NCBI RefSeq assembly: GCF_014698035.1
Contig: NZ_JACJSF010000030.1
Coordinates: 1 to 64,000, forward strand
From: Desmonostoc muscorum FACHB-395
GTDB lineage: Bacteria; Cyanobacteriota; Cyanobacteriia; Cyanobacteriales; Nostocaceae
Length of the DNA stretch: 64,000 nucleotides
Reading direction: 5' to 3'
The position numbers and the translations under genes were made by a program. This document shows positions 2,521-37,301 of this stretch, piece by piece. A model generated the notes under the pieces. That model ran no database searches. It had not been told where the DNA came from and worked only from the letters and a program-made list of their open reading frames with translations. Position 1 is the first letter of the stretch, and each line of letters opens with the position of its first letter.

Positions 2521-3171
2521 ATGTCTTCTAACGATTTGCGATCGCTACATTACGCCATCCCTGTTGAAAAAATTCACTACGATGAACGGGGTTTAGTGCC
2601 TGCAATTGTCCAAGATTATTTGGATGGTACTGTCCTAATGATGGCGTGGATGAATCAGGAGTCGTTACAAAAAACTTTAGAAACTGAAGAAACTTGGTTT
2701 TGGAGCCGTTCCCGGCAAGAATTATGGCACAAGGGGGCGACTTCTGGACATATTCAAAAAGTGCAAAGTATTCGTTATGACTGTGATAGTGATGCCTTGC
2801 TCATAGGGGTAGAGCAATTAGGAGATGTTGCTTGCCATACTGGAGAACGCAGTTGCTTTCACCAAATAGAAGGAAATATTGTTCCACCACCAGGGGATAC
2901 GTTGTCGCAATTGTTTCAAATAATATGCGATCGCCGGGACAATCCTACTGAAAGTTCTTATACCTGTAAACTATTCGCTGGTGGCGATAACAAAATTTTG
3001 AAAAAGATCGGTGAGGAAACCGCCGAGGTGGTAATGGCCTTTAAAGATGATGAAGCAGATGCGATCGCAGGTGAAGTGGCTGATTTGCTATATCATACTT
3101 TGGTTGCCTTAGCTCACCATCAAGTTGATTTGAAATCTGTGTATCGTAAGTTGCAAGAACGTCGCCAATGA
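2521..3171 (+). CDS. hisIE: Bifunctional phosphoribosyl-AMP cyclohydrolase / phosphoribosyl-ATP pyrophosphatase
   Basis: It performs two successive steps of histidine synthesis: hydrolysis of PR-ATP to PR-AMP and opening of the adenine ring of PR-AMP. The HisI domain covers roughly residues 15-115, with [10 protein letters not shown], the [16 protein letters not shown] signature and the zinc-associated cysteines in [10 protein letters not shown]. The HisE domain follows (about 130-216), with [30 protein letters not shown]. At 216 residues it is a normal HisIE fusion. Start ATG 2521 is the first in frame. It is monocistronic; a G/A-rich simple repeat and a dispersed repeat (3254-3379) follow it. 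Confidence 0.96.
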
Positions 3172-3253
3172 GGAGGAAAGGGAGCAGGGGGCAGGGAGAA
3201 AGAGGCTTTTCCGATTTTTGCACAGATGCGGTAATCATAAGTGATTAACCGGA

Positions 3254-3379
3254 CTTTTAACTTCTTTCTTTGTGTCCTTTGCGTCCTACCCTGCGGGAAG
3301 CCGCTCCGCGTCTATGCGGTTCGTTTTTCTTCCTTGTACTTAAATATGGTTTAGCGCATCTTCATACAGAATTGGTATC
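3254..3379. repeat. Dispersed repeat, copy 1, overlapping the end of the MFS gene
   Basis: Read on the minus strand this stretch matches 47985-48122: both start with GATACCAATTCTGTATGAAG, continue GATGCGCTAAACC, and end in AAAGAAAGAAGTTAAAAG, with indels in the middle. It covers the intergenic end of hisIE and the last six codons (D-T-N-S-V-stop) of the MFS transporter gene, so that gene now ends inside the repeat. Confidence 0.75.
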
Positions 3380-4645
3380 AGCTAAAATCCGATTGAGATA
3401 CTGTAAAATCACCACGACAATCAGCACACTCAAGGGGAATCCTAGCCAAAAAGTATTGGTAATAATTTGCGGTTGATCTAATGCCCATCCACCCAATGGA
3501 TGACCAATAAAAGACCCAATCGCCCAACACACAGCATTGACGGAGAAATAAACGCCACGTTGATTTTCCGGGGCTAACTCAGTGACTAAAGAGGCGGCAG
3601 ATGGAGTATAAGAAACAATTGCAACTGCAAATACTCCCAATGCCAATGCTACCCAAACTAAATTATAAGATGGGGCAGTACCGCTTACCCAAATGAGTCC
3701 AAAACCAACTCCCCAAAGAATGGCGGAAACGGTGAGTGCCAGTGTGTGAGAACAGCGTTTTAAGAAACTGGTGACAGGCAACTGACAAATGATAGCTAGC
3801 ACCAGATGCCAAGCAAATAGAACGCTAATAGTAGTTTGAGCAAATCCTTCGGTAGTACTTTTGATAACAAAGTTTTTGAAGTAAAGCGGCAGAGTGCTAT
3901 GGATTTGAGAAATATAGATTGTAAAGAATATATTAACTGCGATGTAGACCAGGAAACGGCGATCGCTTAATACTGCCATCCAAGAAGCAAAATGTTCTTT
4001 CTTTTCAAATTCCCCTATCTGCTGTTGTTCGGTTTTACTAATTCCCACATAGACAACCCCAAAAAACATCAGAAAAGAGATGGCATCAATGATAAATAGC
4101 CATCGATAACTCCCAATTACCGCGATCAAAAACCCAGCAAGCATAATTCCGATCGCTAACCCAAGATTATCAGCCAGTCGTGCGATCGCAAAAGTTTCGC
4201 GGCGATTGTCAATCTGGCTAGCGTCAGCCACAACAGCTTCAGCCGCCGGCCAATAGAAACCTATCCCTAAACCGCTAATCAAGCTACCAATTACCAAAAT
4301 AGTAAAATCATTGGTTGCAGCTAAAACCAGAGAAGCAATTGCTGAAATCGCCGTCGCTAGCAACAAAGTGCGGCGGCGGCCCCAGTGTTCAGAATCAGCC
4401 AAAGAACCACCTACAATCCTCCCCACAATGCCGGAAATCGAGGCGCTACCCAAGGCTACCCCAACACTGGTTGCAGATAAACCAACTTCATTCACAAAAA
4501 AGATGGGGGCGTAAAACAGGGTACAGCCGGTGCCAACTTCCGACAGAAATCTACCTATCGCAAAAATCCAGACTTGGGGATGTATTGAGGGCAGCCACGA
4601 TGATAGCTGAGATTGAGAAGCTAATTTCATGAGTTTAGATGTCAT
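3362..4645 (-). CDS. MFS transporter
   Basis: A 427-residue integral membrane protein with about twelve hydrophobic helices and the major-facilitator loop motif: GRIVGGSLADSEHWGRRRTLL after helix 2. The N-terminal half also has GSLISGLGIGFYWPAAEAVVAD, like drug/sugar-proton antiporters of the DHA1 group. The substrate cannot be read from the sequence. The central cytoplasmic loop (about 205-225) is charged, as usual. The last residues, DTNSV, and the stop codon lie within a dispersed repeat (3254-3379), so the natural C-terminus may have been replaced. Start ATG 4645; a cluster of DnaA-box-like sites lies in its upstream DNA. Confidence 0.85.
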   Translation of the reverse strand: MTSKLMKLASQSQLSSWLPSIHPQVWIFAIGRFLSEVGTGCTLFYAPIFFVNEVGLSATSVGVALGSASISGIVGRIVGGSLADSEHWGRRRTLLLATAISAIASLVLAATNDFTILVIGSLISGLGIGFYWPAAEAVVADASQIDNRRETFAIARLADNLGLAIGIMLAGFLIAVIGSYRWLFIIDAISFLMFFGVVYVGISKTEQQQIGEFEKKEHFASWMAVLSDRRFLVYIAVNIFFTIYISQIHSTLPLYFKNFVIKSTTEGFAQTTISVLFAWHLVLAIICQLPVTSFLKRCSHTLALTVSAILWGVGFGLIWVSGTAPSYNLVWVALALGVFAVAIVSYTPSAASLVTELAPENQRGVYFSVNAVCWAIGSFIGHPLGGWALDQPQIITNTFWLGFPLSVLIVVVILQYLNRILADTNSV

Positions 4646-30100: not shown

Positions 30101-31139
30101 ATTCACTTCTTGGCCTAGTAGAAAGGAGATTTACTCCTGTTGTACTTTGAACAACTTCTTCATCATCGAACCTCAGTTGGGCTAATGAGGTGATTGAATC
30201 TTCCTTTGCGGGGAGAGGGAGATTTTCGGGTATTGTGGCTTGGGTTTCTTCCCTTTCATACTCCAATACCAGTTCCTCTAAATTTTCGGTGAATCTTTCC
30301 TCAAAAAAGATATTTTCAGATGCTGAGGTGATTGGTTCAACAGCTGGCACATCATATTCCCATAACTGCTCACCTAAGCTACGAATTAGCTCTTGCCCAG
30401 GCGAAATTGGGATAATTTCTTCATCGGTTGTGATTTCTACAACATCTGGTTCATCATACTCCCATAACTGCTCGCCTAAATTGCGGATCAGTTCTTCTCC
30501 AGGAGTAATTTCTACGACATCCGGCTCATCATACTCCCATAACTGCTCGCCTAAATTACGGATCAGTTCTTCACCAGGAGTAGTTTCTATGACATCTGGC
30601 TCATCATGCTCCCATAACTGCTCGCCTAAATTGCCGATCAGTTCTTCCCCAGGAGCGATTTCTACCCCATATTGTTCAGGAGTAATTTCTAAGTCCGCTT
30701 CTGGATAATTCTCCTCATCCTCTATCTGTGTAGGTGAGTTTTGCATCATGCGGATGCCAATGTCATAAGCAACATCTCCAATTCTGCCAACACCAAGTTC
30801 CCCCAATTGCACCATCTGTGATGCTAAAAGAGGATTCGGTGCAGGTGAAGCTAGCAAGCTTTCGCCAAACATCACCAACCAATCTATCCAGCGTTCGGCC
30901 GGAATCCGATTTTCAACCCGTTGCAGATACCTCAATGCCCACTGTCGTCCTCGTGCTTGATGCACGCCTTCTAACAATTGGATAAACAATTGTTCCAGAT
31001 CAGCATTGGTTAGTTCTGGTAGTACCTCCACCAGATTGTGTCCTCTCGCACCCTTAAGAGAACTAGCCTGCTTACTTTCAATGAGGCGCTTTAAAAGCCT
31101 TTTAAGCGACTGCGATATCCGCCTGAGCATCTGCCACAC
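27174..31139 (-). CDS. TPR-CHAT caspase-like protein
   Basis: A 1321-residue multidomain protein. Residues 1-130 are a helical module shared with the next gene (LEQLFIQLLEGVHQARG, VQLGELGVGRIGDVAYDIG). Residues about 165-270 hold four copies of a 25-residue acidic unit (EELIRNLGEQLWEYDEPDV). Residues about 405-700 hold eight TPRs and a partial ninth, each ending like EAIASYDKAIELKPD. The C-terminus is a CHAT domain with an intact His/Cys pair: FHFTGHV (about 1147) and LSACEN (about 1188). CHAT domains are caspase-like proteases; TPRs may sense a partner. The start is GTG 31139, or ATG 31130. Substrate and trigger are unknown. Confidence 0.9.
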   Translation of the reverse strand: MWQMLRRISQSLKRLLKRLIESKQASSLKGARGHNLVEVLPELTNADLEQLFIQLLEGVHQARGRQWALRYLQRVENRIPAERWIDWLVMFGESLLASPAPNPLLASQMVQLGELGVGRIGDVAYDIGIRMMQNSPTQIEDEENYPEADLEITPEQYGVEIAPGEELIGNLGEQLWEHDEPDVIETTPGEELIRNLGEQLWEYDEPDVVEITPGEELIRNLGEQLWEYDEPDVVEITTDEEIIPISPGQELIRSLGEQLWEYDVPAVEPITSASENIFFEERFTENLEELVLEYEREETQATIPENLPLPAKEDSITSLAQLRFDDEEVVQSTTGVNLLSTRPRSELTTSPSVENWDSALTNLEPNVANTLDELWVKLDQSTNLVQQLASNLAVQSSNSPGIIERHSDNPITNAQGWFYQGLSQAKTGDLLGAIASYDRAIELQPEVSEYWFNRGLTLFHLERFEEAIASYETAIELKPDFYKAWHNRGGTLGELGYFEEAIASFDKAIEVKPDYQEAWSSKGLALLKLGWLPEAIYSYDQALQLEPEDQENWYHRGIALAVGEQFSEAIISYDKALEINPEYHEVWIDRGVVLFNLGRWSEAIASWDKALSVQADFYLAWYNRGIALDNLGRRQEAIASYRQAIAIKPDFHLAWYNQAVALFYLEQFAEAIACYDNALEIKQDYWEAWIGRGTAIGNLVNSDALLNLSSNITATNPALQQGGYEGKLASYEEGLKHLRTDTHPEGWGRLHLAIANTYYDQGKKHPNPRDYWRKAASEYHQALLTLTLEYFPLFHLEVLQSLSKVLMGLGQTTQVQELLQRGTDLLRQLLSEETRSDESKKQLALKFAGFDQLAVDLAVESGDLVEAWEIAEQGKNACLNWLLSGWNNNIYSPHYGAIQQLFNPTTAIIYWHISPVALHTFILKDQAPSPILLFTPMQDAGAIPLGEDAIRLNELPLPEAVQRLIEFETWLEDWHQQYQEYRTTAQDKESKSQHSWRVDMEQKLVQLYGILNISTIAQELEGITQLVLIPHRDLYRLPIHTLFHLSSPSQEELPNVESNFTVTYLPSAQIGLSIRTEDIWQWQNQLLLSVEHPESAGYPPLKFAKLESEVVSQMFNNIQRIQGAEATKNIVENAFFDNYNIFHFTGHVTNNLAEPKKSELALAGEEKLTLDEIYQHNLSTYNLITLSACENLSTSNHTISGEYVSLASGLVSQGVPHIVSTLWSVESSASALVMIEFYRRLQPNKSAVTALAEATRWLKELTAGELTKWYEDILNNLHPEELRIQTYLATQLYRNSKMASDKNLYNHPYYWAAFTITGKPN
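30345..30660 (-). repeat. Tandem 75-bp coding repeats in the CHAT gene
   Basis: Four in-frame units encode PGEELI-x-NLGEQLWE-x-DEPDV with small changes; between units three and four is an extra nine-residue insert. DNA of units two and three is nearly identical, so they arose recently. The short paralog at 31301-31999 has a single related motif (GEPIWEYEGPDA) in the same place. Confidence 0.85.
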
Positions 31140-31999: not shown

Positions 32000-32057
32000 C
32001 GAGTTTTGCTTATCTATAAAATTGTAGCGATCGCACTGGACTATGGCGTTAGTTCTT

Positions 32058-32106
32058 TGTCATTTGTCATTTGTCATTGGTCATTGGTCATTAGTCATTG
32101 GTCATT
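32058..32106. repeat. 7-base tandem repeat (GTCATTT/GTCATTG)
   Basis: About seven tandem copies of GTCATTT, GTCATTG and GTCATTA lie between the CHAT paralog and dnaX, which are divergent. The rest of the 376-base spacer (32000-32375) shows nothing I recognise. The same unit is inside hppD (9691-9753). Confidence 0.8.
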
Positions 32107-32375
32107 AGTTCTTTTTTCCCTACTTCCTACTTTTGATAAGAACAAATGTACTAAATGCTATGCTATAATTCCGATACATTGATGTTGAAATCATAGTAAA
32201 GAATTATGATCTAGTTGCTTGCTTTCCTGAGTGCCAAAATTGACGGCATTAGTTGAGTGTAAGCGCTATAGCAACATCGATGAAGAAAGCAGGTACGAGA
32301 GTTTAAAATAATTGAATCCCAAACTCGACTCGGTGCTACTAATTAACGTTGAAAGGCATTGAAGTCTATTTTTCC

Positions 32376-35300
32376 ATGTCTTACGAACCCCTGCACCATA
32401 AATATCGCCCCAAAAGTTTTGCTGAACTGGTGGGACAAGAGGCGATCGCTACAACCCTCACGAATGCGATCGGCACATCTAAAATCGCCCCCGCCTATTT
32501 ATTTACAGGGCCAAGAGGTACGGGGAAAACTTCTAGTGCCCGGATTTTAGCTAAATCTCTCAATTGTCTCAAAAGCGATCGGCCCACTGCTGAACCCTGC
32601 GGCGTGTGTGATGTTTGTCAAGGAATCACCAAGGGTTACGCTTTAGATGTAATTGAAATCGATGCTGCTAGTAACACTGGTGTCGATAATATCCGCGAGT
32701 TGATTGAAAAAGCCCAGTTTGCCCCTGTGCAGTGTCGTTACAAGGTTTATGTAATCGATGAATGCTTAACTGGAGATTCTCTGGTTTTGACTGACGAGGG
32801 ACTTCAAAGAATTGATGATCCCAAAATTAAAGATAAGAAGGTTCTGAGTTACAACGACTCATTAGGTAAGTGGGAATTCAAGAAAGTTGTCAGGTGGTTA
32901 GATCAAGGGGAAAGACAAACCCTGGTTATCAAAACAACTAATAGAGAAATTAGATGTACGGGTAATCATTTAATTAGGACAAATCAGGGATGGCTACCAG
33001 CAAAGGACGTAAAAGAAGGAGTGAAGATACTATCCCCTGTGAATGGGGATGCGGCATCCTCATTTACAAATTTGGTATTGATGGACGTACCCGAAGATTT
33101 GTTAGCGGACACCAGTTTAAAGGCAATACATCTGGGCAAAAATCATACGACTTGGAATCTATCCTTAAACAAGCCGAATTACTCCGACCTTTCTGTGCTT
33201 GCGGGTGCGGAGAAAAGCTCGATATCCCAACCTTTTTACAAAAAAAAGGACGAGGAATCATCAGCATCCAGTCTCGTTGGGAAAAACATCCATATAAAAA
33301 AGGACACGGAATCTGGAAACTTAGAACAGAAAAGTTCCTTGCGGATGCGGCAGTTATCCAGCCAAACGCACTTGGACTTATCTACGGAACCTTACTTGGA
33401 GATTGCTCTATCAGTTATCCCAATAAATACAGCAGATTCCCCAGATTGTGTTGGACACACTCAGAAAAGCAGCAAGAATGGTTGGAATACAAAGCTTATC
33501 GCCTTGAAGAATTGCGTCCAAAACTGCGAATTACAGATAACAAAGGATACGGAAACATCTCAGTTACCTGTAACACCGCTTGTCATCCCCAACTCAAAGA
33601 TGTCTTGGAAATCGTTAAACCAAATGGGGATAAAAAGCTCGTCTCTATGGACTGGCTTAATCGAATTACCCCAGAAGGACTTGCTTGGTGGTACATGGAT
33701 GATGGCTCACTCAGTCTCAGTCCACAAGGAAGTCCACAAATTCAATTGCATACAGAAGGATTCTCTGGCGCAGAAAATCAACTCATTGCCAGTTGGCTTA
33801 CAGCAATGGGATATTCAGTTGCAACAAAGTTTTACACCAGAAGTAGTACAGGCAAGACATACTACTACATCCAGATGGGTGCAAGCACCAGTAGAAAATG
33901 GCTGGCAGACCTTAAACAATATTCCATCCCCTCAATGGATTACAAGTTTGGAGACAGTCGAATCTGTTCACCTCGCTGGGGTTGAGCGAGTTTACGATAT
34001 TGAAGTAGCAGATAATCATAACTTTGTAGCAAACGGGCTTTTGGTACATAATTGCCACATGCTCAGTACTCAGGCATTCAACGCGCTACTTAAGACCCTA
34101 GAAGAACCACCGAGACACGTGGTTTTTGTATTAGCTACAACAGACCCGCAACGGGTGTTACCAACGATTATTTCGCGCTGTCAAAGGTTTGATTTTAGAC
34201 GTATTCAATTAGAGGCGATGGTTAAGCATTTAAGTGCGATCGCCTTTAAAGAAAGCATTCATATTTCACCCGAAGCTGTAACCCTGGTAGCCCAACTTTC
34301 TCAGGGAGGGTTGCGAGATGCCGAAAGCTTACTCGATCAATTGGGTTTGTTAGCGGGTGAAGTGACACCAGATAGAGTTTGGGATTTGGTCGGGACGGTA
34401 AGCGAACAGGACTTGCTGGGACTTCTAAATGCGATCGCTCAAGATAAACCTGAAGCAGTTCTTGACAGTACCCACAAAATTCTCGATCGTGGTCGAGAAC
34501 CCCTAATTCTTCTGCAAAATCTCGCCGCTTTCTACCGTGATTTACTCATAGCCAAAACAGCACCGAACCGCCACGATTTAGTTGCTTGTACTGAGCAAAC
34601 CTGGACGGCGTTGGTTGAGTTTGCTCAATACTTCGATATGAGCGTGATTTTGGCAGGACAGGAACACCTGCGAAAAGCTGAAGTGCAAATTAAAAACAGC
34701 ACTCAGCCACGTTTATGGTTGGAAGTAACATTACTAGGATTGTTACCCAGTGCGACGACAAATATTCAACCACAAGCCCCAAATATCGCGCCGCGAGTTA
34801 ACCCACCTGCTGTATCTCCAAGTTATCCTCCAGCAGTTACCCAAAATTATGCAGTCTCTTCTTTACCGGTAGCGGAACCGCAAACAAATCATAACTCTAC
34901 AAACCATCATGTAGCGATTGCCCAAAATCAGCCTGTCACTTCATCTGGCGCAGTTGAACAGCAAACAAATCACAATTCTGCTGCAAACTCAGTTTCACCA
35001 CCAACCCCAGAACCTGTTGCTGTACCCGTATCGCCTGCGATCGTTGAACCAGTAATTTCAGAAGTTGTTGGCGAAGCAGAATATGACTTAACTCAGGTTT
35101 GGCAACAGGTGCTTGCTAACCTTCAGCCAAAATCAAGGCAAGAAATGCTGCGTCAAATGAGCCAACTTATAGAGTTCGACGGTGTTATGGCTCGAATTGC
35201 TATCAAGCAGGCATGGTATGACAAGGGTAAATCTTATCTACCGATGATTACGGAAGCTTTCCAGCAAACTTTCCAGCGTGAAATCCAGATAAATATAGAA

Positions 35301-35777
35301 AAAGGAATTTCTTCAAACTCTACCTCCGCCAAAAAAAATCCTCCGCCAAAAGACTCTAGTCGCGTTCAGCAACCAGCTACTCCTAGTTACAACCAGCAAA
35401 TTTCGCCTCCAGCGCCAGTACCACAGCCAGCAACGCCAGCACCAGCACCATTCAAAACCGAGCCGCTAGCAAAAAATGGAAATGGGGTAAATGGAAATGG
35501 AATAAATGGAAATGGAAATGGAATAAATGGAAATGGAGTAAATGGAAATGGAGTAAATGGAAATGGGGCAAATAGAAATGGGGCGCAAACTTTGCCTCCA
35601 CCGCCACAACGAACACCTGCACCTGATTGGGAAATTGATGAAGTAGCGATCGCTGCTCAACGTCTAGCAGAATTCTTCAACGGACAAATTATCCGTTTCA
35701 CTGAGGATTCAACAGAATTCTCCGATTCCATAGCTACACCTGAATGGGTAGAGGAATCAGAAGTTGATGATGAGTGA
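32376..35777 (+). CDS. dnaX: DNA polymerase III gamma/tau subunit with an intein
   Basis: The clamp-loader ATPase. From ATG 32376 (a TTG at 32349 also opens the frame) the precursor is 1133 residues; removal of a 430-residue intein (130-559) leaves 703. Walker A is GPRGTGKT (45-52), the zinc site CLKSDRPTAEPCGVCDVC follows, and the intein splits Walker B, KVYVIDE|CHMLS. After it come the SRC sensor region TTDPQRVLPTIISRC and domain III. The C-terminal tau extension is Pro/Gln-rich, with an Asn-Gly repeat (35473-35580). An A8 run at 35331 may allow a gamma product. The precursor must splice to be active, since Walker B is broken by the intein. Confidence 0.95.
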   Translation: MSYEPLHHKYRPKSFAELVGQEAIATTLTNAIGTSKIAPAYLFTGPRGTGKTSSARILAKSLNCLKSDRPTAEPCGVCDVCQGITKGYALDVIEIDAASNTGVDNIRELIEKAQFAPVQCRYKVYVIDECLTGDSLVLTDEGLQRIDDPKIKDKKVLSYNDSLGKWEFKKVVRWLDQGERQTLVIKTTNREIRCTGNHLIRTNQGWLPAKDVKEGVKILSPVNGDAASSFTNLVLMDVPEDLLADTSLKAIHLGKNHTTWNLSLNKPNYSDLSVLAGAEKSSISQPFYKKKDEESSASSLVGKNIHIKKDTESGNLEQKSSLRMRQLSSQTHLDLSTEPYLEIALSVIPINTADSPDCVGHTQKSSKNGWNTKLIALKNCVQNCELQITKDTETSQLPVTPLVIPNSKMSWKSLNQMGIKSSSLWTGLIELPQKDLLGGTWMMAHSVSVHKEVHKFNCIQKDSLAQKINSLPVGLQQWDIQLQQSFTPEVVQARHTTTSRWVQAPVENGWQTLNNIPSPQWITSLETVESVHLAGVERVYDIEVADNHNFVANGLLVHNCHMLSTQAFNALLKTLEEPPRHVVFVLATTDPQRVLPTIISRCQRFDFRRIQLEAMVKHLSAIAFKESIHISPEAVTLVAQLSQGGLRDAESLLDQLGLLAGEVTPDRVWDLVGTVSEQDLLGLLNAIAQDKPEAVLDSTHKILDRGREPLILLQNLAAFYRDLLIAKTAPNRHDLVACTEQTWTALVEFAQYFDMSVILAGQEHLRKAEVQIKNSTQPRLWLEVTLLGLLPSATTNIQPQAPNIAPRVNPPAVSPSYPPAVTQNYAVSSLPVAEPQTNHNSTNHHVAIAQNQPVTSSGAVEQQTNHNSAANSVSPPTPEPVAVPVSPAIVEPVISEVVGEAEYDLTQVWQQVLANLQPKSRQEMLRQMSQLIEFDGVMARIAIKQAWYDKGKSYLPMITEAFQQTFQREIQINIEKGISSNSTSAKKNPPPKDSSRVQQPATPSYNQQISPPAPVPQPATPAPAPFKTEPLAKNGNGVNGNGINGNGNGINGNGVNGNGVNGNGANRNGAQTLPPPPQRTPAPDWEIDEVAIAAQRLAEFFNGQIIRFTEDSTEFSDSIATPEWVEESEVDDE
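32763..34052 (+). mobile_element. DnaX intein, 430 codons, with out-of-frame endonuclease
   Basis: The intein reads from Cys (CLTGDSLVLTDEGLQ, block A) through block B (CTGNHLIRTNQGWLPA) to block F (RVYDIEVADNHNFVANG) and the terminal HN followed by Cys of the extein (LLVHN|CHM). These are all residues needed for class 1 splicing: Cys1, block-B His, penultimate His, Asn and +1 Cys. N-terminal splicing part about 95 residues, C-terminal about 35. The 300 codons between are Ser/Lys-rich in this frame and resemble no protein, because that DNA encodes a homing endonuclease in another frame (32990-33985). An intein in DnaX is known from Synechocystis. Confidence 0.93.
32990..33985 (+). CDS. LAGLIDADG homing endonuclease in a different frame inside the intein
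   Basis: The 331-residue product has two LAGLIDADG motifs, GLIYGTLLGDCS (129-140, Asp138) and LAWWYMDDGSL (231-241), with both acidic residues. Before them are two probable zinc clusters: C17-x3-C21 with H41 in a SGH motif, and C69/C71/C73 with H106 in a KGH motif. The frame is shifted by -1 (+2) from dnaX. The ATG lies inside the intein's N-terminal splicing segment and the TGA inside the C-terminal one, so it overlaps functional intein codons at both ends. AGGA ten bases before the ATG could allow internal initiation. A separate protein would be free of the intein. Confidence 0.88.
   Translation: MATSKGRKRRSEDTIPCEWGCGILIYKFGIDGRTRRFVSGHQFKGNTSGQKSYDLESILKQAELLRPFCACGCGEKLDIPTFLQKKGRGIISIQSRWEKHPYKKGHGIWKLRTEKFLADAAVIQPNALGLIYGTLLGDCSISYPNKYSRFPRLCWTHSEKQQEWLEYKAYRLEELRPKLRITDNKGYGNISVTCNTACHPQLKDVLEIVKPNGDKKLVSMDWLNRITPEGLAWWYMDDGSLSLSPQGSPQIQLHTEGFSGAENQLIASWLTAMGYSVATKFYTRSSTGKTYYYIQMGASTSRKWLADLKQYSIPSMDYKFGDSRICSPRWG
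35331..35359 (+). promoter_or_regulatory. Possible slippage site making a DnaX gamma form
   Basis: Eight A residues at 35331-35338 begin a lysine codon pair in frame. If the ribosome moves back one base, or RNA polymerase adds one A, the reading continues for about seven codons and ends at TAG 35357-35359. The product, after splicing, would be about 560 residues, keeping the ATPase and oligomerisation domains but not the tau tail. E. coli uses ribosomal and Thermus transcriptional slippage at similar A runs. No stimulatory hairpin was worked out. Confidence 0.4.
35473..35580 (+). repeat. Asn-Gly coding repeat in the tau tail of dnaX
   Basis: About nine hexanucleotide-like units (AATGGA/AATGGG with AAT or GTA/ATA between) encode a run of N-G, V-N-G and I-N-G residues. 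It separates the tau linker from the conserved C-terminal segment WEIDEVAIAAQRLAEFFNGQ. Such repeats change length easily. Confidence 0.8.
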
Positions 35778-35828
35778 CAATTAAAGCATTGCGTGAAGCA
35801 CGGGGTTTAAAACCCATTCTTCTGATAA

Positions 35829-35865
35829 AAAAATGCAAAATTATTTTTGGTAATTTTGCATTTTT
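35829..35865. terminator. Terminator between dnaX and mgdA (convergent)
   Basis: AAAAATGCAAAATTA pairs with TAATTTTGCATTTTT around a 7-base loop; the arms carry A and T runs in both directions, fitting a bidirectional terminator. Confidence 0.7.
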
Positions 35866-35894
35866 AATTTTTAATTTTTAATTCCCCAAAGGGG

Positions 35895-37301
35895 CTATTC
35901 CACATGCCCCGTATGCAAGGTTTTCACCCATTTTAGGCGCTTTGGTCTTACCGACATCCGGGCAGTAGTACTGCTCATGACGACCAACCAGTGCAACATA
36001 TATAAACTGCCACGCAGGGTTTGCACCAGCATCGTAAGATATGTAGAAAGTGAGAATTTCTGATCTTGACGTATGCGCGTTAGACCTGTGTACATCCCTA
36101 CCATCGACATGGTAACGGACAAGCCTGTAATGGGACTTAACATTGGTGGACGATGACGCGCGATCGCCATCAACAAATCTGGTACTGCTGCTGTAGGTAA
36201 GATATACATAATCAGCATAAAAATCAGCAAATCCCAGCTTTTGCGAGTTCCCATGCGGTTTTTGAGAATTAAATCCCAATAATCCAGATAGCGTTGATAA
36301 CCGCCTTCTGCCCATCGGTTGCGTTGATGCCAAAGTGCGATCGCATTTGTCACACCTTCTTCTTGCACAGCTGGATGGAAAACACACTCAATATCCCACT
36401 TATCCAAATGCAAGCGGATTGTCAAATCCAAATCATCGGTAATAGTTTCCTCATTCCAGCCACCGCAGCTTTCCAAGGCTGAACGCCGGACAAATTGACC
36501 ATTACCCCGCAGTTCGCCGATACCGCCAAGGGCAGTGCGCTGTTGCTGAAACCAGGTATCAAGGGCCATTTCGGCCATTTGCCCCTTAGTCCAAAAATTA
36601 TCTTTGGCGTTGGCGATCGCTTTTCGCACCTGCACCGCCCCCACCTTTTCTCTTTGGAATAAAGGTATTACCTGTTGCAGCAAATCTGGTGTCACTTGGG
36701 CATCAGCATCAAATACTGCTATGATGTCGCCCTTTGTCAGAGGTAACACCTGATTCAACGCCCCTGATTTGCCGCCACTAGCTTCTGCTGAACGCCTTAA
36801 TACTTTCAGTTGCTCGTGTTTCTGTTCTAGTTCTGCTAATAAATGTGGCGTGCTATCACTGCTGTGATCGTCAATAATCCATACTTCATACTGCCCACCT
36901 GGATATTCCAGGTTACAAAGATTTTTGACTAATTTTGCAATTACTGCTTCTTCATTTTTCGCAGCTACTAATACAGATACAAAGGGCAAATCTCCCTGTA
37001 TTTCTTTTGGATAGCGACGAGATTTAGTAAACACGACCACCAAGGCATGAAATCCTAGAATAGTGGTCAGTCCTAGAATAAATATGGAAGCCCAAGAAAC
37101 TAAATGTAGAGCGATCGTGCCACTCCAGACGATAGTCAAGACTAGAGCTGCTTTGCCTCTACGACCTTGAAACCGGGATGGTAGAGACATAGGATCTGTC
37201 TCTAACACTGACTCCTCATCTACTGATAGGTCAGACAACAAGGAGTTGAGCGGATCAAGCTCTTGATAAGAATCTTCTTCGGGCCAGGAATTCGCTGGCA
37301 T
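35895..37301 (-). CDS. mgdA: Beta-monoglucosyldiacylglycerol synthase
   Basis: A 468-residue GT2 glycosyltransferase that makes monoglucosyldiacylglycerol from UDP-glucose, the first step of thylakoid galactolipids in cyanobacteria (Sll1377 type). After an acidic 40-residue N-terminus come two membrane helices, then the GT-A domain: SVLVAAKNEEAVIAKLV, WIIDDHSSDST, the DxD-like FDADAQVTPDLL, GNGQFVRRSALE, TDDLDLTIRLH and the QxxRW-type HQRNRWAEGGYQRY. Four C-terminal helices follow. The neighbours are not lipid genes. Start ATG 37301. Confidence 0.93.
   Translation of the reverse strand: MPANSWPEEDSYQELDPLNSLLSDLSVDEESVLETDPMSLPSRFQGRRGKAALVLTIVWSGTIALHLVSWASIFILGLTTILGFHALVVVFTKSRRYPKEIQGDLPFVSVLVAAKNEEAVIAKLVKNLCNLEYPGGQYEVWIIDDHSSDSTPHLLAELEQKHEQLKVLRRSAEASGGKSGALNQVLPLTKGDIIAVFDADAQVTPDLLQQVIPLFQREKVGAVQVRKAIANAKDNFWTKGQMAEMALDTWFQQQRTALGGIGELRGNGQFVRRSALESCGGWNEETITDDLDLTIRLHLDKWDIECVFHPAVQEEGVTNAIALWHQRNRWAEGGYQRYLDYWDLILKNRMGTRKSWDLLIFMLIMYILPTAAVPDLLMAIARHRPPMLSPITGLSVTMSMVGMYTGLTRIRQDQKFSLSTYLTMLVQTLRGSLYMLHWLVVMSSTTARMSVRPKRLKWVKTLHTGHVE

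Follow-up and report, generated by a model that had tools for sequence, protein, structure and literature searches.

The dnaX locus of Desmonostoc muscorum FACHB-395 raises the question of how some 300 codons can stay open in two reading frames at once, and of what each frame is kept for. The window analysed here, a whole stretch of 64,000 nucleotides (contig NZ_JACJSF010000030.1, positions 1 to 64,000 of the forward strand), contains a dnaX gene which is interrupted by an intein, and the middle of this intein also carries, in another frame, an open reading frame (ORF) for a homing endonuclease (HEN). Very probably, to judge from the comparisons below, this is a dual-frame intein in which the dnaX frame splices and the other frame encodes a separately translated HEN. 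An earlier note, made from the letters of the window alone, had described dnaX as open from end to end with its splicing blocks in frame; translation and profile matches agree with that description. The features of the dnaX frame are:

32376..35777, plus strand: dnaX (DNA polymerase III gamma/tau) ORF including the intein, from translation and NF011510 (2.2e-263)
32763..34052, plus strand: intein in the dnaX frame, 430 residues, between VIDE, which we take to be the Walker B motif, and Cys-His-Met-Leu (CHML)
32763..33050, plus strand: N-terminal splicing segment, intein residues 1-96 (TIGR01445; AlphaFold)
33051..33926, plus strand: host-frame insert, intein residues 97-388, open, predicted to be disordered and little conserved
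33927..34052, plus strand: C-terminal splicing segment, intein residues 389-430, ending in LLVHN (TIGR01443; AlphaFold)

There are no internal stops in dnaX, and Cys (32763) is the first residue of the intein, whose last two, His-Asn, are directly followed by Cys at 34053. Profiles place a splicing domain at both ends of the dnaX-frame intein (Pfam Intein_splicing, 1.9e-14), and Pfam gives no endonuclease family for it at E values up to 1. The AlphaFold model is confident at both ends of the intein, with block means of the predicted local distance difference test (pLDDT) of 90-97 over residues 1-90 and 391-430, whereas over residues 97-388 the value drops to about 25. On these sequence features, with the N-terminal Cys, the splicing blocks and the His-Asn end all in the host frame, the element is a class 1 intein. 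Its host gene is one ORF, not the two of a split intein or fractured gene, and the endonuclease does not share a frame with the splicing halves as it does in the canonical bifunctional intein. It is found instead in the following ORF:

32990..33985, plus strand: LAGLIDADG_2 HEN ORF of 331 residues, ATG to TGA, in frame -1 relative to dnaX
33038..33055, plus strand: first Cys cluster, CEWGCG, zinc-binding by appearance, putative role
33194..33211, plus strand: second Cys cluster, CACGCG, with a putative zinc role
33377..33403, plus strand: first LAGLIDADG motif, LIYGTLLGD, HEN residues 130-138
33680..33706, plus strand: second LAGLIDADG motif, LAWWYMDDG, HEN residues 231-239

The 331-residue ORF, its -1 frame, both LAGLIDADG motifs and the Cys clusters were all recovered as first described, and Pfam matches the product to LAGLIDADG_2 at 9e-23. 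The protein is predicted to fold (pLDDT 84.7), the best structural matches of the model being I-WcaI (6x1j) and I-SceI with target template modelling scores of 0.74-0.75; with two motifs bearing their acidic residues and this predicted fold, it is by its model an I-SceI-like LAGLIDADG homing endonuclease (PF03161). The ORF runs into the well-predicted splicing parts on both sides. Stretches of about 60 and 30 bases had been thought to be read in both frames, and the first of these figures stands (approximately 61 nt on the N side) whilst the second does not, the overlap on the C side being approximately 59 nt when the limits of the segments are taken from AlphaFold (residues 96 and 389).

A search with the HEN at 1e-5 of 386 cyanobacterial genomes, the window's own included, gave matches in 23, with nine near-full-length places (again counting the window's), and both frames were open in all nine, although in one of these (L009) a TGA occurs shortly before the HEN ends. 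Genome contigs were also scanned, the best 80 of 87 relatives giving 78 loci, and a recognisable dnaX ORF runs through the intein in 87 loci, duplicates included. Three further loci (L056, L065 and L073) were left out of the dnaX-intein count on account of a contig end or a variant motif; no stop interrupts the part of their dnaX frame that is visible. The 80 distinct DnaX inteins range from 138 to 522 residues and comprise 50 of 429-431 residues (the full-length set, after removal of two identical copies), 25 that are shorter and five length variants. Translation of these inteins in all frames, which the earlier note had put forward as a check, found the host frame free of stops across the overlap in 50 of the 50 full-length inteins, so that the host-frame stops in relatives which would have spoken against its proposal were looked for and did not appear. 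The HEN frame is uninterrupted in 41 of the same 50 and contains stops in nine, which lie only near the C end in L009 and L074 and at codon 295 of 331 in L043; the third frame has 13-27 stops per intein (mean 20.5). When the 46 inteins of exactly 430 residues were thinned at 5, 10, 15, 20 and 25% nucleotide divergence, 32, 23, 20, 12 and 10 were left and all were open. The 25 shorter inteins are read as in-frame deletions within the HEN. Throughout the DnaX set, stops and deletions fall in the HEN and never in the host frame.

Within the genus of the window the element has a patchy distribution. A HEN match was found in 18 of 53 genomes, the window's included, of which 12 are full length and two of these carry HEN stops, and empty alleles are present, with dnaX uninterrupted in the congeners G068, G125 and G167. 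The 11 other full-length copies, some of which may duplicate strains of the genome-contig scan, all have a 430-residue intein with an open host frame (11/11).

Openness of this kind is not expected by chance. The argument first made for this used uniform codon frequencies, and it has been superseded by a stricter synonymous randomisation in which the HEN protein was held fixed and codons were drawn 4000 times at the frequencies of the dnaX exteins, a table which, as a point against the calculation, may include codons past the dnaX stop in longer loci, the window's locus not being among them. For the 290-codon core of the window HEN, 14.5 host-frame stops were expected and none observed, and none of the 4000 draws was open; over the 50 inteins the mean expectation was 12.3 against none observed, with a highest probability of openness of 0.0003. 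When codons were shuffled only among positions of the same amino acid, 5.6 stops were still expected, and the frame was open with a mean probability of 0.0008. Particular codon pairs tell the same story in the 41 intact HENs as compared with the exteins of the same genes: xTA followed by A or G occurs in 0/232 cases against 1166/1803, xTG followed by A in 0/335 against 269/1348, and Met followed by an A-starting codon in 0/119 against 80/319, the last showing that stops are avoided even where the choice of residue becomes restricted. In the same phase, 6-27 stops are present in each of 14 relatives that were taken to be free-standing. The proposal that selection holds the dnaX frame open is thus borne out both by the 50 relatives and by the Met pairs.

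The two frames appear to be constrained in different ways. Over 703 pairs of 38 inteins, HEN codon positions 1, 2 and 3 diverge by 0.233, 0.159 and 0.424, the coding-like order of third over first over second, in comparison to 0.183, 0.103 and 0.539 for the exteins, whilst the share of differing residues is 30% for the HEN, 52% for the host-frame insert and 18% for the exteins. On the basis of these codon-position and residue divergences the HEN is constrained as a protein, as the earlier note had supposed for this frame too, and the host-frame insert is little constrained beyond its openness. Selection for a hydrophilic, acidic linker in the host frame was considered as a general rule and rejected: in the 41 intact DnaX copies the mean hydrophilicity and acidity of the insert exceed two codon-usage nulls, but the excess vanishes against a null built from the HEN's own codon usage, and HEN codon bias explains it equally well. 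The six phage helicase copies described below share no direction in hydrophobicity, and the acidic excess has the same sign in 10 of 10 free-standing controls.

In the mechanism that we propose, the dnaX frame would give a precursor in which the ends of the intein fold as a splicing domain, and this domain would excise itself together with the long disordered insert to leave functional DnaX. The other frame would supply an I-SceI-like LAGLIDADG HEN, which bears a Cys-rich module at its N terminus and would be made from its own ATG inside the dnaX mRNA, and the free HEN would cut intein-less dnaX alleles, thereby allowing the element to be copied into them. Selection on dnaX would purge host-frame stops and frameshifts, and because of this the HEN could evolve only via codons and deletions that leave the host frame open. 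The account draws together both open frames across relatives, the avoidance of stops at codon level, the constraint on the HEN as a protein and the patchy distribution, each of them documented in the comparisons above. How the HEN would be translated is suggested by two features upstream of it:

32975..32977, plus strand: TAG in the HEN frame, just upstream of the HEN ATG
32976..32979, plus strand: AGGA, Shine-Dalgarno-like, ten bases before the HEN ATG, with a putative function

An ATG stands at the HEN start position in each of the 41 intact copies and arises there from an A-ending codon before Trp in the host frame, GGA for Gly in 40 copies and an Ala codon in one, and GGA makes up 304 of the 1087 extein Gly codons. 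The AGGA was already pointed out in the earlier note; its place is filled by AGG or AGA in 38 of the 41 intact copies, although the two make up 274 of the 1231 Arg codons of the exteins. Each of the 41 intact copies has a stop in the HEN frame 6-90 nt ahead of the ATG; the distance is 15 nt in the window and does not exceed 15 nt in 23 of them. The best surviving rival, programmed -1 frameshifting on dnaX to give the HEN as an N-terminally fused product, has in its favour that the HEN frame is indeed -1 to dnaX and that -1 frameshifting is known from bacterial dnaX genes, at another place in the gene. It would have to contend with the upstream stop in every intact copy and with the mostly conserved ATG and AGGA/AGAA, and a slippery heptamer of the form X XXY YYZ lies within 63 nt before the ATG in only two of the 41; we therefore regard it as unlikely. 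With the ATG and the Shine-Dalgarno-like place kept, a HEN-frame stop upstream and the slippery heptamer in few copies, internal initiation at the HEN's own conserved ATG on the dnaX mRNA is probably the route taken.

Three observations weigh against internal initiation. Of 24 shorter inteins (L078-L082 and the unmatched L013 excluded), 21 retain the ATG as well and, because it persists in these HEN-deleted copies, its conservation is due in part to common descent; in addition, eight of the 41 intact copies have another possible start upstream, and two 522-residue variants carry CTG at the ATG position. These two DnaX inteins, L081 and L082, are from Laspinema and have an open HEN frame of 440-448 codons, which probably has a different start.

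A further rival is that the second frame is a relic, an endonuclease that was once in frame, was shifted out and is no longer expressed, its openness being inherited or due to chance. The HEN-frame stops in nine of 50 full-length inteins and the shortening of 25 of 80 fit this reading, and by the same token they count against ours, since the HENs are often dead. The other 41 full-length copies lack such stops, positions 1 and 2 are constrained, the motifs are kept and intact full-length copies reach down to approximately 61% identity, whereas a relic should lose its frame fast, and this makes the relic quite improbable. As HEN position 3 (position 2 of the host frame) diverges by less than extein position 3, the host frame may also be under a weak constraint over and above its openness, a point against our reading of the insert.

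A group I intron with an ordinary intronic endonuclease ORF, removed at the RNA level with no intein involved, was also considered. In group I introns out-of-frame endonuclease ORFs are usual, and group I intron matches do occur near two Bacillaceae relatives, but no Rfam intron match was obtained at E values up to 1 in window positions 32000-36000 (4001 bases), the splicing blocks and the HN|C end are in frame, and the lack of host-frame stops in all 50 full-length inteins would be needless for an intron, which leaves this explanation highly improbable. An artefact of sequencing or assembly is scarcely conceivable, and nothing was found in its favour: the indels near 33000 and 33960 that would have undone the earlier proposal were looked for and did not appear, and they are very improbable given that dozens of other assemblies, complete chromosomes among them, have the same arrangement and phase.

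The dual-frame intein is not confined to cyanobacteria. A related HEN lies out of frame, in the same phase as in DnaX, in a helicase of Xanthomonas phage FoX3; the same gene is recorded as a putative DNA helicase in one record and as head morphogenesis in the other (MT161383.1, NC_055837.1). Scans of viral contigs (in one scan the best 80 of 95) gave 94 entries for classification, after L113, L116, L122, L125, L126, L128, L132-L134, L136, L139, L154, L169 and L172 had been set aside as repeats of contigs or of FoX3, and 13 of the 94 were flagged as identical, leaving 81 (L115 and L140, which are one contig, were both kept). Eight of the 81 have a stop-free second frame over the HEN match, while the other 73 have at least three stops in each other frame. 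Five of the eight are SF2 helicases in phase +1 (L111, L114, L120, L123 and L127), so that with FoX3 six phage helicase inteins share the design and phase of DnaX, and three are terminase-type proteins in phase +2 (L117, L129 and L131), to which a fourth +2 locus of this type, L105 from a Clostridia metagenome bin, can be added. On the sequences compared, the design is family-wide in cyanobacterial DnaX inteins and common to phages. Under synonymous randomisation (3000 draws), 11 loci including the window each had a probability of openness of at most 0.001.

Pfam was run on nine of these proteins, the five helicases and the four +2 proteins, with FoX3 left out. ResIII and the splicing domain were above cut-off in all five helicases. 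Among the +2 loci the terminase ATPase was above cut-off in L117 and L131, just short of it in L129 and without a match in L105; the splicing domain did not reach its cut-off in L105, L117 and L131 and had no match in L129. The C-terminal ends are nevertheless intein-like, but these weak or absent matches make the +2 set less certain to consist of inteins. The HENs of L105, L117 and L131 have a long Lys/Arg/Ala-rich C-terminal extension after the Cys cluster, over which the host frame is stop-free too (for L131, from the ORF length). In a quick tree of 67 HEN cores, the out-of-frame HENs of DnaX and the helicases fall, together with that of the split locus L031, on one side of a branch (Shimodaira-Hasegawa-like approximate likelihood ratio test 95), and three of the four +2 HENs group elsewhere at 98, L129 joining them only with the in-frame L121 in between. 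These separate groups and the difference in phase suggest that the out-of-frame design arose at least twice. The nearest outgroups, at low support, are the in-frame helicase intein L119 and the free-standing Cys-module HEN L124, and the out-of-frame design may have come about, as the earlier note proposed, either by entry of an endonuclease gene into a mini-intein or by fixation of a shift. A tree of the splicing domains, which are short and very divergent, has only 3 of 23 inner branches starred; long branches meet in it and the DnaX inteins do not form one group. The group I intron matches near free-standing HEN relatives in Bacillaceae, L101:4073-4435 and L104:4067-4391, are on the minus strand, opposite to the HEN.

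Certain phage loci bear on the origin of split inteins. In Escherichia phage AN_ECEAS (L031) the helicase is encoded by two ORFs at the same DE|C...HN|CH site; the two halves share a frame, in which ten stops stand between the close of the N half and the C half, and the HEN frame (2932-3807) overlaps both intein halves in the same +1 phase. The layout is repeated in Escherichia phage ES (L222), where the parts are annotated as separate coding sequences (CDSs), and a viral contig (L254) which is cut off inside the HEN, before any C half, has an N half and HEN that keep this phase. L255 lacks the greater part of the HEN, and its intein halves are in different frames. The host gene is in two separate ORFs in L031, L222 and L255. 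An unsplit dual-frame intein may possibly have passed into a split one, as would fit these phage loci: as the HEN has its own start, stops and a new internal start could subsequently arise in the host frame without harm to the HEN. Against this route it should be noted that L031 is on a long branch and that the direction of change is one which we infer. A further candidate split intein, or an intron, is present in Bacteroides phage PhiCrAssBcn18 (L220, 1953-4186), in which a replicative helicase is in two CDSs with a HEN ORF of the same superfamily between them. Taking these loci together, we incline, though only slightly, to the view that dual-frame inteins form a class of mobile elements which has recurred, has lasted for long and began at least twice (+1 in phage SF2 helicases and cyanobacterial DnaX, +2 in terminase-type phage proteins), all adjoining, by eye, the Walker B motif of a P-loop ATPase, and ancestral to the split inteins that have a HEN between their halves.

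Some 300 codons open in two frames across a cyanobacterial clade would represent a clean case of natural overlapping genes outside viruses, and one with built-in controls in the same gene, namely mini-inteins, empty alleles and copies in which the HEN is dead. As the two halves of a selfish element would be separated at translation, homing could be regulated and lost independently of splicing, and splicing independently of homing. We would also predict that annotation overlooks endonucleases concealed in the long, featureless middles of inteins. The design offers a testable path from unsplit to split inteins and may show how some of the latter arise.

Three tandem repeats were observed around the gene: a unit of approximately 15 bp encoding an Asn-Gly run in the 3' part of dnaX (35474-35581), a GTCATTG heptamer in 6.9 copies upstream of dnaX (32059-32106), and an array of a 75-bp unit in 3.5 copies with 86% matches (30404-30665).

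In ordinary large inteins the endonuclease is in frame with the splicing halves. The canonical bifunctional LAGLIDADG inteins resemble that of the window in that a single element carries splicing blocks as well as a LAGLIDADG endonuclease; in the window, however, the HEN has a start and a stop of its own in a different frame, and the in-frame middle is a filler predicted to be disordered. In-frame relatives of the window HEN do exist, in a viral helicase (L119) and in the RNA ligase of phage KLEP7 (L030). Fractured genes and split inteins with an endonuclease between the halves were reportedly described by Dassa et al. in 2009, and they are like L031 and L222, where the HEN ORF lies between the halves and overlaps them; the window differs in that its intein is unsplit, and the HENs of L031 and L222 keep the phase of the unsplit family. 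The Ssp DnaX intein of Synechocystis PCC 6803 is presumably, at 430 residues, of the same insertion family as the window intein. No exact match to that dnaX copy was found among the five genomes of the genus of G014, the nearest being a mini-intein in G076 (86% over 92 residues). The Ssp intein resides in the same host protein as that of the window (PMC3443213, PMC3620165), its splicing in E. coli is stated in PMC3620165, and a difference in frame is unmentioned in the available excerpts of both papers. Gorbalenya 1998 (Non-canonical inteins, NAR 26:1741) is cited for the Ssp GyrB intein in an excerpt of PMC3443213, and appears as reference 53 beside overlapping reading frames in one of PMC11855218. 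No earlier description of an out-of-frame HEN in inteins was recognised in the literature searched, outside which lay Gorbalenya 1998, a paper that may hold the DnaX case.

The earlier note had allowed that a previous report would remove its novelty, and this is true in part: an out-of-frame HNH endonuclease has been published, ShiLan (2025), but that insertion is not an intein, its authors finding no splicing domain and predicting no splicing, as far as the available part of the paper goes (PMC11855218). ShiLan is the closest precedent seen for an out-of-frame endonuclease. Both it and the window have a mobile endonuclease hidden out of frame within a stop-free host frame, whereas ShiLan, from the same excerpt, has an HNH enzyme without a splicing domain and the window has a LAGLIDADG enzyme together with one.
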